From assembly GCF_004209775.1 (NCBI RefSeq), contig NZ_CP035914.1, forward strand, positions 186,001 to 250,000: a stretch of 64,000 nucleotides of DNA, given 5' to 3'. Positions 12,592 to 16,308 of this stretch are shown piece by piece; the first letter of the stretch is position 1; every line of letters starts with the position of its first letter. A program made the translations under genes and the position numbers. This DNA is from Synechococcus sp. WH 8101. Its GTDB lineage: Bacteria; Cyanobacteriota; Cyanobacteriia; PCC-6307; Cyanobiaceae. The notes beneath the pieces were generated by a model. It was not told the origin of the DNA. It saw only the letters and a list, made by a program, of their open reading frames with translations, and ran no database searches.

Positions 12592-13697
12592 GTCTGCAGC
12601 GGTTGCTGGTGTTCGCGCCGACGCGGCGCGCGGCCTCGGAAACCTTTGTGCGGGCGACGCTGGCCGGCCTCCCCTGCGAGGTGGTGGCCTACTTCGGCGA
12701 TGAGTGTCCCCTGGGGCAGCCTGATCGCCTCGCCTATGGCCTGGCGGTGCTGCTCAGCAAGGTGTGCACGCGGCTGGGTTGGCTGAAGCTGGCGGGTTGG
12801 CCGGCGGCTCAGGTGGCCAGGGGGTTGATTGATCGTCATCGGCCCGATCTGGTGCTGGCGGAATTCGGCTTCCATGCCGTGCGGGTGATGGAGGCCTGCC
12901 CACGCGCCCGCGTGCCGCTGGTGGTGCATTTCCGGGGCTCCGATCTTTCGGCCGCCGGCAAATTGGGAGTGTTGCGTGAGCGTTACCGGCGGCTGATGCA
13001 GCTGGCGGCTGGCCTGATCTGCAAATCCCAGCCAATGGCCCGTACCCTGCGCGAGCTGGGGGGGGATCCGCAGCGGATTCTGATCAGTGCTTCCGGGGCG
13101 AATGCCGCCCTGTTCACCGCTGGCGATGCGGCAGCAGCTCCAGCCATTGCACTGGCGGTGGGGCGGTTTGTCGAGAAGAAAGGGCCCTTGCTCACGATTC
13201 GCGCCTTTGCCCGTATGCCCCTCGGGGAGCTGTGGATGGTGGGAGAGGGGCCCTTGCTGCCTGCGGCTCGGCGTTTGGTGGCGGAGCTCGGCCTGGAGGA
13301 TCGGGTGCGGTTTCTCGGCACGCAGACCCAGGAGCAGGTGGCGGCGCTGATGCGCCGGGTGCGCGTCTTCGTGCAGCATTCCCTGGTGGCGGCTGATGGC
13401 GACAGTGAGGGCAATCCGGTGGCAGTGATGGAGGCCCAGTTGAGCGCCCTGCCGGTGGTGGCCACCCGGCATGCGGGCATCCCCGAGGTGGTGCTCGAGG
13501 GCGTCACCGGTTGGCTGGTGGAGGAGGGCGATGTGGACGCCATGGCGCTGGCGCTGGAGCGACTGCTGGTCGAGCCGGCCCTGGCGGCTCGCCTGGGTGC
13601 GGCCGGCCGGGAGCGGGTGCTGGCCCGCTTCACCCTCGACCATCATCTGCAGGATCTGATGGCGTTCCTGGAGCGCGTCGCGGCGGACGAGGTGTGA
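12588..13697 (+). CDS. GT4 glycosyltransferase (AmsK/WcaL-like)
   Basis: 369 residues, ATG overlapping the previous stop (ATGA). The start RAASETFVRATLAGL matches the SETF-type N-terminus of the AmsK/WcaL branch of GT4 enzymes in exopolysaccharide clusters. Donor-domain motifs are VGRFVEKKGPLLTIRAF near 185 and DSEGNPVAVMEAQLSALPVV near 270. It is cytosolic with no membrane helix. It ends by sharing one base with the sulfotransferase start, so glycosylation and sulfation genes are in one transcription unit. Substrate is unknown. Confidence 0.86.
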   Translation: MSLQRLLVFAPTRRAASETFVRATLAGLPCEVVAYFGDECPLGQPDRLAYGLAVLLSKVCTRLGWLKLAGWPAAQVARGLIDRHRPDLVLAEFGFHAVRVMEACPRARVPLVVHFRGSDLSAAGKLGVLRERYRRLMQLAAGLICKSQPMARTLRELGGDPQRILISASGANAALFTAGDAAAAPAIALAVGRFVEKKGPLLTIRAFARMPLGELWMVGEGPLLPAARRLVAELGLEDRVRFLGTQTQEQVAALMRRVRVFVQHSLVAADGDSEGNPVAVMEAQLSALPVVATRHAGIPEVVLEGVTGWLVEEGDVDAMALALERLLVEPALAARLGAAGRERVLARFTLDHHLQDLMAFLERVAADEV

Positions 13698-14551
13698 TGG
13701 CGGCACCACGCAGATTGCTGTTAATCCGCGGCCTGGGGCACAGCGGCACCACGATCCTTGATCTCGCCCTCGGTGCCCATCCCGCCATCACCGGATTGGG
13801 GGAGGCGGTGCGGCTGCTGGAAACGCCGGCGGCGGGCGACGCCCATCGCGGCCCGGCTCAGTTGCGTGGACCGTTGCGCTTTGAACGGGCCTGCACCTGT
13901 GGTGCCGTCGCCGCCGCTTGCCCCGTGTGGGGGCCGGTGCTGGATTGGCTCCCGGCCAATGATCACCGGCCGCTGCTGGAGAAGTTGCATCACTTGCTCG
14001 ATGCGCTGGCACCCGCCGAGGATGCCTGGGTGGTGGAGTCGTATCAGGACGATCGCCATCTACCCCTGCTCAGCGATCCCTCCCTGGAGATCCGGGTGAT
14101 CCATCTCACCCGTGATGTGCGCAGCTGGGTGCATTCGCGGGCCCGGGATGGCCGCCGCCAGGGGCATTGGCTGCCGGGTCTGGTGCCGCTGCTGCGCTGG
14201 TGGCGCCTCAGCGCCCGTCATGCCGCTCTGTTTGAGGAGTGCGGCAAGCCGGTGTTCCGGCTGGGTTATGAGGAGCTGGCGCTGGCACCCGAAGCGAGCC
14301 TGCGTCGCCTGTGCCATTGGCTGGAGCTCGACTTCGACCCCGCGATGCTGCAGCCGGTGTTGCACTCCGGTAGCCACATCCTCGCCGGCAATCGGGTGCG
14401 CTTCGATGTGGAGAAAGGACGGGCGATTCACTACGACGCCGACTGGATGGGGATGGGCGCCGGGGTGGCACAGCTCGCCCTGCTCTGGCCACCCTTGGCT
14501 CGCCTGAATCGCCGTTTGGTTTATTCCGGCTTCACCGCTGGCCAGCGATAG
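13697..14551 (+). CDS. Sulfotransferase, HSGTT type (ST1)
   Basis: 284 residues from ATG at the 1-bp overlap with the preceding gene. The open frame extends further upstream but has no homology there. The 5'-phosphosulfate-binding loop is RGLGHSGTT (residues 11-19), and the 3'-phosphate site is HLTRDVRSWVHSR near 134. A Cys pair CTCG plus CPVW near residues 64-76 is shared with the sulfotransferase at 28118 (CSCH, CPFW). Family role: moving sulfate from PAPS to a hydroxyl or amine, here presumably of a surface sugar. It is the last gene of the long plus-strand run and overlaps the convergent membrane-protein gene by 31 bp. Acceptor is unknown. Confidence 0.8.
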   Translation: MAAPRRLLLIRGLGHSGTTILDLALGAHPAITGLGEAVRLLETPAAGDAHRGPAQLRGPLRFERACTCGAVAAACPVWGPVLDWLPANDHRPLLEKLHHLLDALAPAEDAWVVESYQDDRHLPLLSDPSLEIRVIHLTRDVRSWVHSRARDGRRQGHWLPGLVPLLRWWRLSARHAALFEECGKPVFRLGYEELALAPEASLRRLCHWLELDFDPAMLQPVLHSGSHILAGNRVRFDVEKGRAIHYDADWMGMGAGVAQLALLWPPLARLNRRLVYSGFTAGQR

Positions 14552-16308
14552 ATCCGGCCGTTGCTCACGGCGGGATCAAAGCGATAGATCGGCTCAAACG
14601 AGGAAATATCGATGCCATATTTCTCCAGCTTGTTGCCGGAGCCGATATCGAGAAAGAAGTCACCGGGGCCCGGTTGATAGAGCTGGCCGCGTTGGCGACC
14701 TTCGAGAATTCGATACTGCTTTTTGTCTGGGTCGAGATACACCAGGCGATCGAACGGCAGCCGTTTGATCGTGTCGGAATGTTTGAACCACGACTTGCTG
14801 AAAATCAGGTTCACCGGCTCACCCTTGCGTCGGGCCTTCCGCGCGACGGCATCGGCCTGATCGAGGGTGGCTTGCCAGGAGCGCTGGGTCTGGTGGATGT
14901 CGGTCAAGCGGCTCACAAAAGTCTGGGCGAAGCGATGTTCCACAATCAGCACCAGGCTGCTGAGGCCGATCGCCAGCAGGTTGATGGCCGGCCAGGACCA
15001 TCGGGCCTGCAGCCTGGGTTCCAGCCATGCACTCCAGAGAAACAGCAGATCGAGCAAGGCGATCCAGTGCACCGGCAACGCCATGTAATTCGTGCTCTTG
15101 AAGCCCACCAGGGCATACAGCGCGAGGCTGTAGGTCAGGGCGGCGATGTTGAGACCATCGAGCAGCTGGAAGCGGGCCTGGTGGCGGGCGATCAAGACAG
15201 CGCGGCCGATGATGAAGGCGGTGAGCGATGCCGTGCGCAGATCCAGTTCCAGGGCGGAGAAGCGCAGGCCGGCGTCGTAGCGCGCATCTCCGAAGAACAC
15301 ACTCGGCAGCACGCTCAGACCGAGCACCGCGGCACACCAGAGCGGAATCAGGCCGATCAGCATGGCTTCGAGCTGATAAGCCTCCAGCCAACTTCGCCAG
15401 CCATGGCGCGACCAGCGCGGGGAATCCTGCAGCCCTCCCAGCGACCCGGCCAGCACGGTGGCAATCGCGGGAATCACGAACAGCAGGATGGCCGTGTCTT
15501 TGGTGAAACTTCCCAGTAGCGCTGCCGCCAAGGCGATGGTGCCATCGCGGCCGTTGCGGCTGTGGAGATAGCGGCCATAGAAGGTGGCGAATAGCGCCAA
15601 GAACAGGGTGAGCAGCCGCTCGCTGTAGATGAACTGGAAATAGTTGTAGGCCGCTGCGGGCGTGAACAGAAACAGCAGGCAGGCGATCCACACCAGGCTG
15701 GTGCTGCGAGTGCGTTTTGCCAGCAACAGGGTCAGCTGCACGGCGAGCACAATCGTGAGAATGAGCTCGATGGCGCTGACTGCAGACCACACCTTCACGT
15801 AGGGGGTCAGCCAGCTGAGGAGATGAAGATCCTGATGGGCGAGAGGAAAGAAACGGAAATCGTTGCGTCCCATCGATTCGCTGATGAAGGAATCACGCAA
15901 CGAGAAATTGGACAGCAGAAAGCCGGTGTTGGCGTCGTCAAACCAGGTGAGAATTTCCTTGTAAAACCAACTGCTCTCGCTGATCATCACCAGGGCGTAG
16001 GCGATCAGCAGCACCGACGGCAGGGGGTGGCGGCGAATCGCGCGCAGGATGGCTGGGACGGGTGAACGCCAGGTCCAGGATTCCGAACCGATCAGCAGGG
16101 CGATGCTGAGGAGGACCACGCCGATGAACAGACCGTGGGCCCAGTCGTTGTAGGTCTGCAGCAGCTGGCCGCCTGCCGGGGAGAGTGCAGACGGAAGCAG
16201 CGCCCTGTTGCTGGTCAGCCAACCCCAGGCGATCAGGCCCAGCAGGCTGAGCAGCGCTGAGAGGGCAGCCAGGCCCAGCCAGTAGCGCTTGAACTGCTGC
16301 AGCCTCAT
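14521..16308 (-). CDS. Large multi-pass membrane protein of unknown function, copy A
   Basis: 595 residues, ATG start MRLQQFKRYWLG. About ten or more hydrophobic helices lie in residues 10-450, followed by a soluble C-terminal domain of about 140 residues. Key shared motifs with the copies at 16316 and 28986 are SSWFYKE near 118, [11 protein letters not shown] near 153 followed by LSW and KVW, YSERLLT near 233, FTKDTAI near 270, LDGLNIAAL near 380, and the tail segment VNLIFSKSW. The topology and the acidic first loop recall GT-C glycosyltransferases, but I cannot match a named family. It overlaps the convergent ST1 gene by 31 bp and lies 7 bp after copy B on the same strand. Confidence 0.8.
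   Translation of the reverse strand: MRLQQFKRYWLGLAALSALLSLLGLIAWGWLTSNRALLPSALSPAGGQLLQTYNDWAHGLFIGVVLLSIALLIGSESWTWRSPVPAILRAIRRHPLPSVLLIAYALVMISESSWFYKEILTWFDDANTGFLLSNFSLRDSFISESMGRNDFRFFPLAHQDLHLLSWLTPYVKVWSAVSAIELILTIVLAVQLTLLLAKRTRSTSLVWIACLLFLFTPAAAYNYFQFIYSERLLTLFLALFATFYGRYLHSRNGRDGTIALAAALLGSFTKDTAILLFVIPAIATVLAGSLGGLQDSPRWSRHGWRSWLEAYQLEAMLIGLIPLWCAAVLGLSVLPSVFFGDARYDAGLRFSALELDLRTASLTAFIIGRAVLIARHQARFQLLDGLNIAALTYSLALYALVGFKSTNYMALPVHWIALLDLLFLWSAWLEPRLQARWSWPAINLLAIGLSSLVLIVEHRFAQTFVSRLTDIHQTQRSWQATLDQADAVARKARRKGEPVNLIFSKSWFKHSDTIKRLPFDRLVYLDPDKKQYRILEGRQRGQLYQPGPGDFFLDIGSGNKLEKYGIDISSFEPIYRFDPAVSNGRIYRWPAVKPE

Follow-up and report, generated by a model that had tools for sequence, protein, structure and literature searches.

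What brings a sulfotransferase gene and the gene of a large membrane protein together, tail to tail, at two places in one cyanobacterial genome? In the window analysed here (64,000 nucleotides of Synechococcus sp. WH 8101, contig NZ_CP035914.1, positions 186,001 to 250,000, numbered from 1 in this text), the sulfotransferase gene ST1 converges with the gene of membrane protein copy A at the main site, and ST3 converges with copy C at a second site (Table 1). The original prediction held that this was a two-gene module, either duplicated together or kept together by selection, whose partners act on the same glycan. The anatomy is real, but the unit was wrong: the module is most likely the meeting of two operon ends. 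In the reading that we consider reasonably likely, the partners belong to separate transcription units, and the membrane proteins are GT-C-fold glycosyltransferases that use a Gtr-like donor for sugar transfer to a surface glycan. The pair hypothesis is thus replaced by a testable one, which gives an unnamed family a predicted fold, a slot map and a candidate pathway for its donor. The unnamed GT-C family, together with the donor module that probably serves it, is of more interest than the pair.

The convergence itself is as had been described. The 3' ends of ST1 and copy A overlap by 31 bp, 10 bp separate the end of ST3 from the last base of copy C (28986), and both sulfotransferases have the GHSG[TS]T and CxC...CP[VF]W motifs and exceed the cut-off of Pfam Sulfotransfer_3 (PF13469; 46.9 bits for ST1 and 43.6 for ST3, cut-off 27). 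An 11-residue motif is indeed shared by copies A and C, but it is also present in copy B. Since copy B directly adjoins A, the main site holds two membrane-protein genes. Copy C, which had been taken as one gene (28986-30694), is split into two open reading frames (ORFs), 29324-30697 and 28986-29492, in different frames, and its alignment with the homologue of G169 switches frame near 29324-29333 (G and L numbers are our labels for genomes and for contigs or loci, respectively). Copy C is missing in G181 and G193, which are close relatives: a recently inserted copy may have decayed, the relatives may have lost theirs, or the frame break may be a sequencing error. The longer piece of C resembles A far beyond chance (BLASTP E 3e-92, 38% identity), and it is 41-42% identical to B, so C is no closer to A; at the level of sequence, the A/C similarity does not single out a relationship between these two. 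The identity between ST1 and ST3 is only 25-31%.

Phylogenetic analyses gave no mirrored trees for A/C and ST1/ST3, which was the test named with the original prediction. In a tree of 56 membrane-protein rows, the four ST3-adjacent copies (window copy C and those of G138, G169 and G253) form a clade with a support of 99 together with five B-position copies from WH7803 and similar genomes, and copy A is outside this clade, within which window C joins the other three ST3-adjacent copies weakly (70). Constraining the A-type and C-type copies together cost 161 log units (approximately unbiased (AU) test, p 7e-55). The ST1-adjacent copies split into two separate starred clades, and different family members have therefore been placed beside ST1. 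Among 46 sulfotransferases, ST1 and ST3 are sister groups (99) that are far apart and each spread across several genera; the outgroup rows are whole ORFs on long branches. An old sulfotransferase duplication that gave rise to ST1 and ST3 is possible, but both the AU test and the trees reject a joint duplication of the sulfotransferase and the membrane protein as a unit. Rows were dropped for loci duplicating genomes in the set (L006, L007, L010-L012, L014-L016 and L018-L020), for scores of 100 bits or less, and for pieces of fewer than 330 residues (membrane protein) or 180 residues (sulfotransferase). The truncated row G322_45788m was retained, L110 could not be found in its short locus for the sulfotransferase tree, and alignment A3 leaves out L009, which has an unknown residue, as well as the shorter pieces of L011 and C.

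At the main site, an ABC transporter gene (labelled MsbA-like at a score below the model's cut-off), three glycosyltransferase (GT) genes and ST1 run on the forward strand and meet A, B and kdsA, which run on the other. The stop of the last GT gene and the start of ST1 overlap by 1 bp, and the gap between B and A is 7 bp (for kdsA and B, see Table 1). Of 39 ST1-type genes across genomes, 28 overlap the preceding ORF by 1 or 4 bp when the start nearest the upstream stop is taken; three of the 39 were not measurable. Of 17 direct pairs, 14 have a membrane-protein ATG at -4 to +22 bp relative to the stop of kdsA, the exceptions being G289 (144 bp), G156 (only a TTG that near) and G260 (none found). 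At the main site, then, each partner is coupled to the genes that precede it, and the convergence follows from this; we infer the operon membership of ST1, A and B from spacing only. ST1 would close the transporter/glycosyltransferase operon, A and B would close the kdsA operon, transcribed toward ST1, and the tail-to-tail pairs would be meeting points of separate transcription units. Copy C, which has no upstream partner on its own strand, would be an independent, now broken copy between ST3 and a uvrD-like helicase gene. Scans of 13600-19100 were uninformative: six terminator-like sites were found versus 2.8 in shuffled sequences, none of them within the ST1/A overlap, and 0 promoter-like sites versus 0.7.

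Of 400 genomes in the GTDB family of the window, 31 were found to carry the membrane-protein family; in a phylum-wide survey it was found in 13 of 386, with 11 strong matches all in the same GTDB family and two weak ones outside. The searches scored the top three membrane-protein or top six sulfotransferase candidates per genome, so that copy numbers and per-genome absences of sulfotransferases are not exhaustive. A copy lies on the kdsA strand in 25 of the 31 carriers, contiguous with kdsA directly or via another copy, ST2 or a short ORF. Matches of the ST1/ST3 type at E under 1e-40 are found in 58 of the 400 genomes, 28 of which carry the family (28 of the 31 carriers). The slot between ST1 and kdsA may hold nothing, one or two membrane-protein genes, ST2, or a membrane-protein gene and ST2 in either order; kdsA is faced directly by ST1 in G141 and G204 and by ST2 in G061, G162, G216 and G314 (kdsA of G181 is shown by tblastn, the gene-order map having antisense ORFs in a few places, such as over this gene and over the GT gene before ST1 in the window). 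ST2-type genes also occupy the slot adjoining ST1 in several genomes. WH7803 (L012/G239) has ST1 and, behind kdsA, two family genes in tandem. At the second site, ST3-type genes occur in 13 mapped genomes, four of which (G000, G138, G169 and G253) have an adjoining copy C. ST3 nearly abuts the uvrD-like gene without copy C in G181, G193, G156 and G075, and a search at this junction in the first three found no trace of C. Wzy_C ligase/polymerase-like genes (L095:14681-16018, L094:6816-8261 and relatives) often adjoin the uvrD-like gene in genomes that lack copy C, as if they and copy C were alternatives for one slot.

The membrane-protein family has no Pfam or NCBIfam model. Among 21 aligned members, the Pfam search gave no common match, with at most two sharing any (best E 0.0077, DUF6086), and a search of PDB sequences with the family profile returned only photosystem I subunit IX at E 0.2 or worse. 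In the AlphaFold2 (AF2) model of copy A (pLDDT 80.7, pTM 0.83), a pair of N-terminal helices precedes the membrane core, and a domain of about 100 residues forms the C-terminal part. VIA-align matched it best to Pmt1/2 (Z 16.7, root-mean-square deviation (rmsd) 5.0, 345 residues), followed by STT3 (16.0), ALG12 (15.6) and ArnT (5f15; Z 15.3, rmsd 6.2, 420 residues). All 43 matches listed with Z of 8.8-16.7 are GT-C-type chains (PMT, OST/STT3, ArnT, ALG, Emb/Aft, PimE, Dpy19 and PIG-U, the last being what we take two GPI-transamidase chains to be), and the next has a Z of 5.5. Three acidic residues (E/D118, E144 and D160) in the loop that follows the first core helix are each conserved in 21 of 21 members. 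On the strength of the model, the family very probably consists of GT-C-fold glycosyltransferases.

A candidate donor module adjoins icd at the edge of the window. It consists of a GtrB-like gene, which also matches ArnC-type chains at about 1e-38 (phmmer), and a gene in which GtrA_DPMS_TM (PF04138; 2.6e-9, 37.7 bits, cut-off 26.1) and YdjC (6e-47) matches lie in one frame (2341-3927). In other genomes, nine icd-slot copies of the membrane-protein gene lie 1.4-2.7 kb from GtrB or GtrA-YdjC, and in G332 the distance from GtrA-YdjC to a copy downstream is about 0.5 kb. The contig L013, which is titled Thiohalocapsa, has the membrane-protein and GtrA genes on one strand (GtrA: PF04138 3e-25) followed by GT2 and YdjC genes on the other, all separate; no sulfotransferase or kdsA was found in this stretch. 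At E under 1e-100, GtrA-YdjC is present in 29 of the 31 carriers versus 15 of 39 chosen non-carriers (Fisher 1.2e-6), with G131 counted as absent (fragment only) and with G260 (broken assembly) and G138 (74% complete) as the exceptions among the carriers. Matches over both parts at this threshold occur in 44 of the 70 genomes searched, some counted with stop codons inside the match. According to the literature, GtrB of Synechocystis makes undecaprenyl-phosphate glucose (PMC4728340), and NaxD, a YdjC-family enzyme, de-acetylates carrier-linked N-acetylgalactosamine before its transfer to lipid A (PMC11279074). By analogy with NaxD, an amino sugar is the leading guess for the sugar transferred here. 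GtrB, the GtrA domain and a GT-C protein also fit a scheme with three components, namely a donor synthase, a flippase and a GT-C enzyme (outlined in PMC11127046).

The AF2 model of ST1 matches the sulfotransferase domain of the PCC 7002 olefin synthase (4gox; Z 16.8, rmsd 4.0, 242 residues), equally 4gbm (Z 16.8), and TPST at a Z of about 14, and the ST1 sequence reaches E 9e-5 to Sulfotransfer_3 enzymes such as 4gox and TPST; unlike the 4gox domain, ST1 is a stand-alone enzyme in a glycan locus. Sulfotransferases that use 3'-phosphoadenosine-5'-phosphosulfate (PAPS) work in the cytoplasm. ST1 and ST3 should therefore act on the cytoplasmic side, opposite the proposed GT-C site. We propose that the GtrB-like enzyme charges a polyprenyl-phosphate carrier with the sugar that the membrane proteins use, that the YdjC domain processes the carrier sugar and the GtrA domain flips the carrier, and that the sugar is then added to the surface glycan on the periplasmic face, with paralogues in different slots acting at different positions and the sulfotransferases sulfating glycan intermediates in the cytoplasm. 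The most likely role of the membrane protein is periplasmic transfer of a sugar, carrier-linked and perhaps de-acetylated, to a surface glycan; the donor, acceptor, sugar and sidedness in this scheme are inferred. More tentatively, and rather less probably, the whole may be an unnamed serotype-switching system, in which a shared donor module (GtrB and a GtrA-YdjC fusion that de-N-acetylates while flipping) feeds a swappable family of periplasmic GT-C enzymes whose copies are gained and lost at fixed operon ends (kdsA, icd and the uvrD-like gene) and re-tailor a sulfated, Kdo-containing glycan, for example against phages or grazers.

Several observations weigh against a Gtr-fed glycosyltransferase family at the ends of separate operons. 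Six of the 31 carriers have no copy contiguous to kdsA, and at the second site ST3 of the window starts 44 bp after its upstream gene, so that the coupling is weaker there. Foldseek alone gave no match to the A model under 0.001 (best E 4.5e-3), and residues 122-124, 129-136 and 154-168 of the presumed catalytic loop have a pLDDT under 50. The GtrB and GtrA-YdjC genes of the window are 10-25 kb from A, B and C. GtrA-YdjC is also present in 15 of 39 genomes that lack the family, so that other GT-C proteins may be served by the module. The Fisher test, moreover, ignores relatedness: the counts are 19/20 versus 5/11 in genus g1 (p 0.004) and 9/9 versus 9/13 in g5 (p 0.11). A first Mantel test (n 15) linked ST1 with the membrane protein (r 0.76; 0.79 partial on uvrD, p 0.001) and gave an r of 0.07 for the membrane protein and kdsA. 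It was set aside for three reasons: the kdsA ORF of G260 is an outlier (distance 0.50-0.56 to all others), the set contained near copies, and uvrD shows little variation (mean distance 0.08). The tests were repeated on rank distances without the near copies (G138, G181, G246 and G242). When G260 was removed as well and either cca or kdsB served as the control (n 11 or 8), the ST1/membrane-protein correlation remained under kdsB (0.38, p 0.009).

This correlation bears on the view that sulfotransferase and membrane protein are a functional pair, duplicated or held together, which act on one glycan. ST1 is directly convergent with a membrane-protein copy in 18 of the 31 carriers (and in the named contig L008), ST3 and C are convergent in four genomes, ST1 and ST3 are sister families, and the distances of ST1 and the membrane protein correlate in the uncontrolled rank test (rho 0.47, p 0.002). 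With cca as the control for relatedness, however, the correlation of ST1 and the membrane protein is gone (-0.06, p 0.66, n 11), and with kdsB the membrane protein correlates likewise with the upstream GT (0.35) and with kdsA (0.27), while ST1 and the upstream GT are linked under both controls (0.64 and 0.79, p 0.001). An ST1-specific signal of coevolution is thus nil with cca and modest and non-specific with kdsB, in small samples. Counted per gene, 23 of 56 copies have a sulfotransferase as the direct convergent neighbour (copy C counted whole). ST1 is coupled to its GT operon and the membrane proteins mostly to kdsA; family copies stay beside kdsA in G265 and G312, in which no ST1 was found among the top six candidates, ST1 stays in G141, G061, G216 and others in which the top three candidates included no family member, and 30 of the 58 genomes with a strong sulfotransferase match have no match to the family. 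C falls with B-position proteins, ST3 occurs without C in four genomes, and no icd-slot copy has a sulfotransferase neighbour. The close association seen in the original prediction is common among carriers. Duplication as a unit is contradicted and selection to keep the pair together is partly supported, but the pair view as a whole looks improbable. Considering the locus as a whole, it is plausible that both proteins act on the same glycan, but adjacency does not prove it.

Equally doubtful in our view is that the family is oligosaccharyltransferase-like or O-antigen ligase/polymerase-like and moves whole glycans instead of single sugars. The six best Foldseek matches are STT3/OST chains, a single member of the 21 matches Wzy_C_2, very weakly (E 0.17), and Wzy_C ligase-like genes lie near the uvrD-like gene in other genomes. 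Oligosaccharyltransferases of the PglB/STT3 type have a WWD-type motif in their C-terminal part, but WW[DNE] is absent from all 21 members, the C-terminal domain is small, and VIA-align ranks the single-sugar enzymes PMT, ALG12 and ArnT as high as OST. We also give little credence to the view that the convergence reflects mobile surface-glycan genes inserted at safe operon ends and that the neighbours, including GtrA and GtrB, are meaningless. The slot contents are highly variable, broken copies exist (window C; fragments in G075, G249 and G260), and islands of marine Synechococcus are rich in glycosyltransferases and were suggested to function in grazer or phage avoidance, according to PMC2441476; against it stand the tight spacing behind kdsA and the repeated closeness to GtrA, GtrB and YdjC, which extends to the distant contig L013. 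A phage origin of the family found no support: tblastn of copy A against 50,697 phage records gave no match at E 1e-3.

Among known systems, the proposed Gtr-like transfer most resembles three-component O-antigen glucosylation, which likewise combines a GT-C transferase, a GtrB-like synthase and a GtrA-like domain in one locus and in which, according to PMC11127046 and PMC4728340, several acceptor enzymes could share one donor module. The three genes of such a cassette are together in L013, near each other around the nine icd-slot copies and in G332, and dispersed in the window. Here, however, GtrA is fused to YdjC, the GT-C genes are paralogues on the chromosome that occupy several slots and commonly follow kdsA, and there is no match in the phage collection and no Pfam or NCBIfam Gtr model above its cut-off. 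The galactosamine modification of lipid A in Francisella and Acinetobacter, as described in PMC11279074, similarly employs a YdjC-superfamily deacetylase, NaxD, on carrier-linked N-acetylgalactosamine, but the deacetylase here is fused to GtrA, and the GT-C protein is not recognised by any ArnT model. ArnT, PMT and ALG12 (GT-C-A) share the predicted fold, and an ArnC-like donor synthase is present; the differences are an identity of about 10%, two extra N-terminal helices and the lack of a profile match. The hexose transferase WsfD (NF051875) matches five of the 21 members weakly (best 5.9e-4), with copy A at 17.4 bits versus a cut-off of 80. In the literature searched, we found no recognised description of the family or of the GtrA-YdjC fusion.

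Table 1. Positions in the window of the convergent genes, their neighbours and the proposed donor module.
Feature	Position	Strand	Remarks
ST1, PAPS-type sulfotransferase (Sulfotransfer_3)	13697..14551	+	last gene of ABC-GT-GT-GT-ST1 run; Pfam PF13469 5e-12
GT4-type glycosyltransferase upstream of ST1	12588..13697	+	coupled to ST1; Pfam Glycos_transf_1 8e-30
Membrane protein copy A, predicted GT-C-fold glycosyltransferase	14521..16308	-	second of tandem B-A; AF2 model
Membrane protein copy B, same family as A	16316..18073	-	37% identical to A; ATG overlaps kdsA stop by 4 bp
kdsA, Kdo-8-phosphate synthase	18070..18921	-	first gene of kdsA-B-A run; NCBIfam NF009109 506 bits, cut-off 457
ST3, sulfotransferase, sister family of ST1	28118..28975	+	Pfam PF13469 5e-11; tree
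Membrane protein copy C, frame-broken near 29324-29333	28986..30697	-	two ORFs in different frames
GtrB-like polyprenyl-phosphate sugar synthase, proposed donor maker	1367..2317	+	phmmer 3.5e-83 to Synechocystis GtrB (sll0501)
GtrA-like TM domain + YdjC-type deacetylase fusion, proposed flippase plus de-N-acetylase	2338..3624	-	presumed start 3624; Pfam

Beyond kdsA, the window continues with a GT8-like gene and kdsB on the forward strand, ST2 and then a kdsC-like and a kdsD/kpsF-type gene on the reverse strand, and, farther on, additional genes, cca, the gene of a 489-aa membrane protein, ST3 and C, and the uvrD-like gene (forward); the uvrD-like and kdsC-like labels were assigned by eye. The 489-aa membrane protein (26604-28073) has no significant Pfam or NCBIfam match, and by eye its DE...HPPLYY pattern is GT-C-like, of the GT39/PMT type. 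The membrane proteins of three contigs titled Gammaproteobacteria or Planctomycetaceae (L008, L009 and L017) fall inside Synechococcus clades, that of L008 on a very short branch with G242, and these contigs are probably misbinned Synechococcus DNA. The assembly of L095 (G260) seems rich in frameshifts, since both its family copies and its kdsA appear to be divided between frames. Two more sulfotransferases, ST2 (20524-21591) and ST4 (36231-37154), cluster together apart from ST1 and ST3. Genes of the Kdo pathway lie at 18070-22992, with KdsA, KdsB and a KpsF/GutQ isomerase above cut-off and a KdsC-like protein recognised by eye. This gene set is notable in marine Synechococcus, because the lipopolysaccharides of strains WH8102 and CC9311 are reported in PMC4515613 to contain glucose, glucosamine and galacturonic acid and no Kdo.

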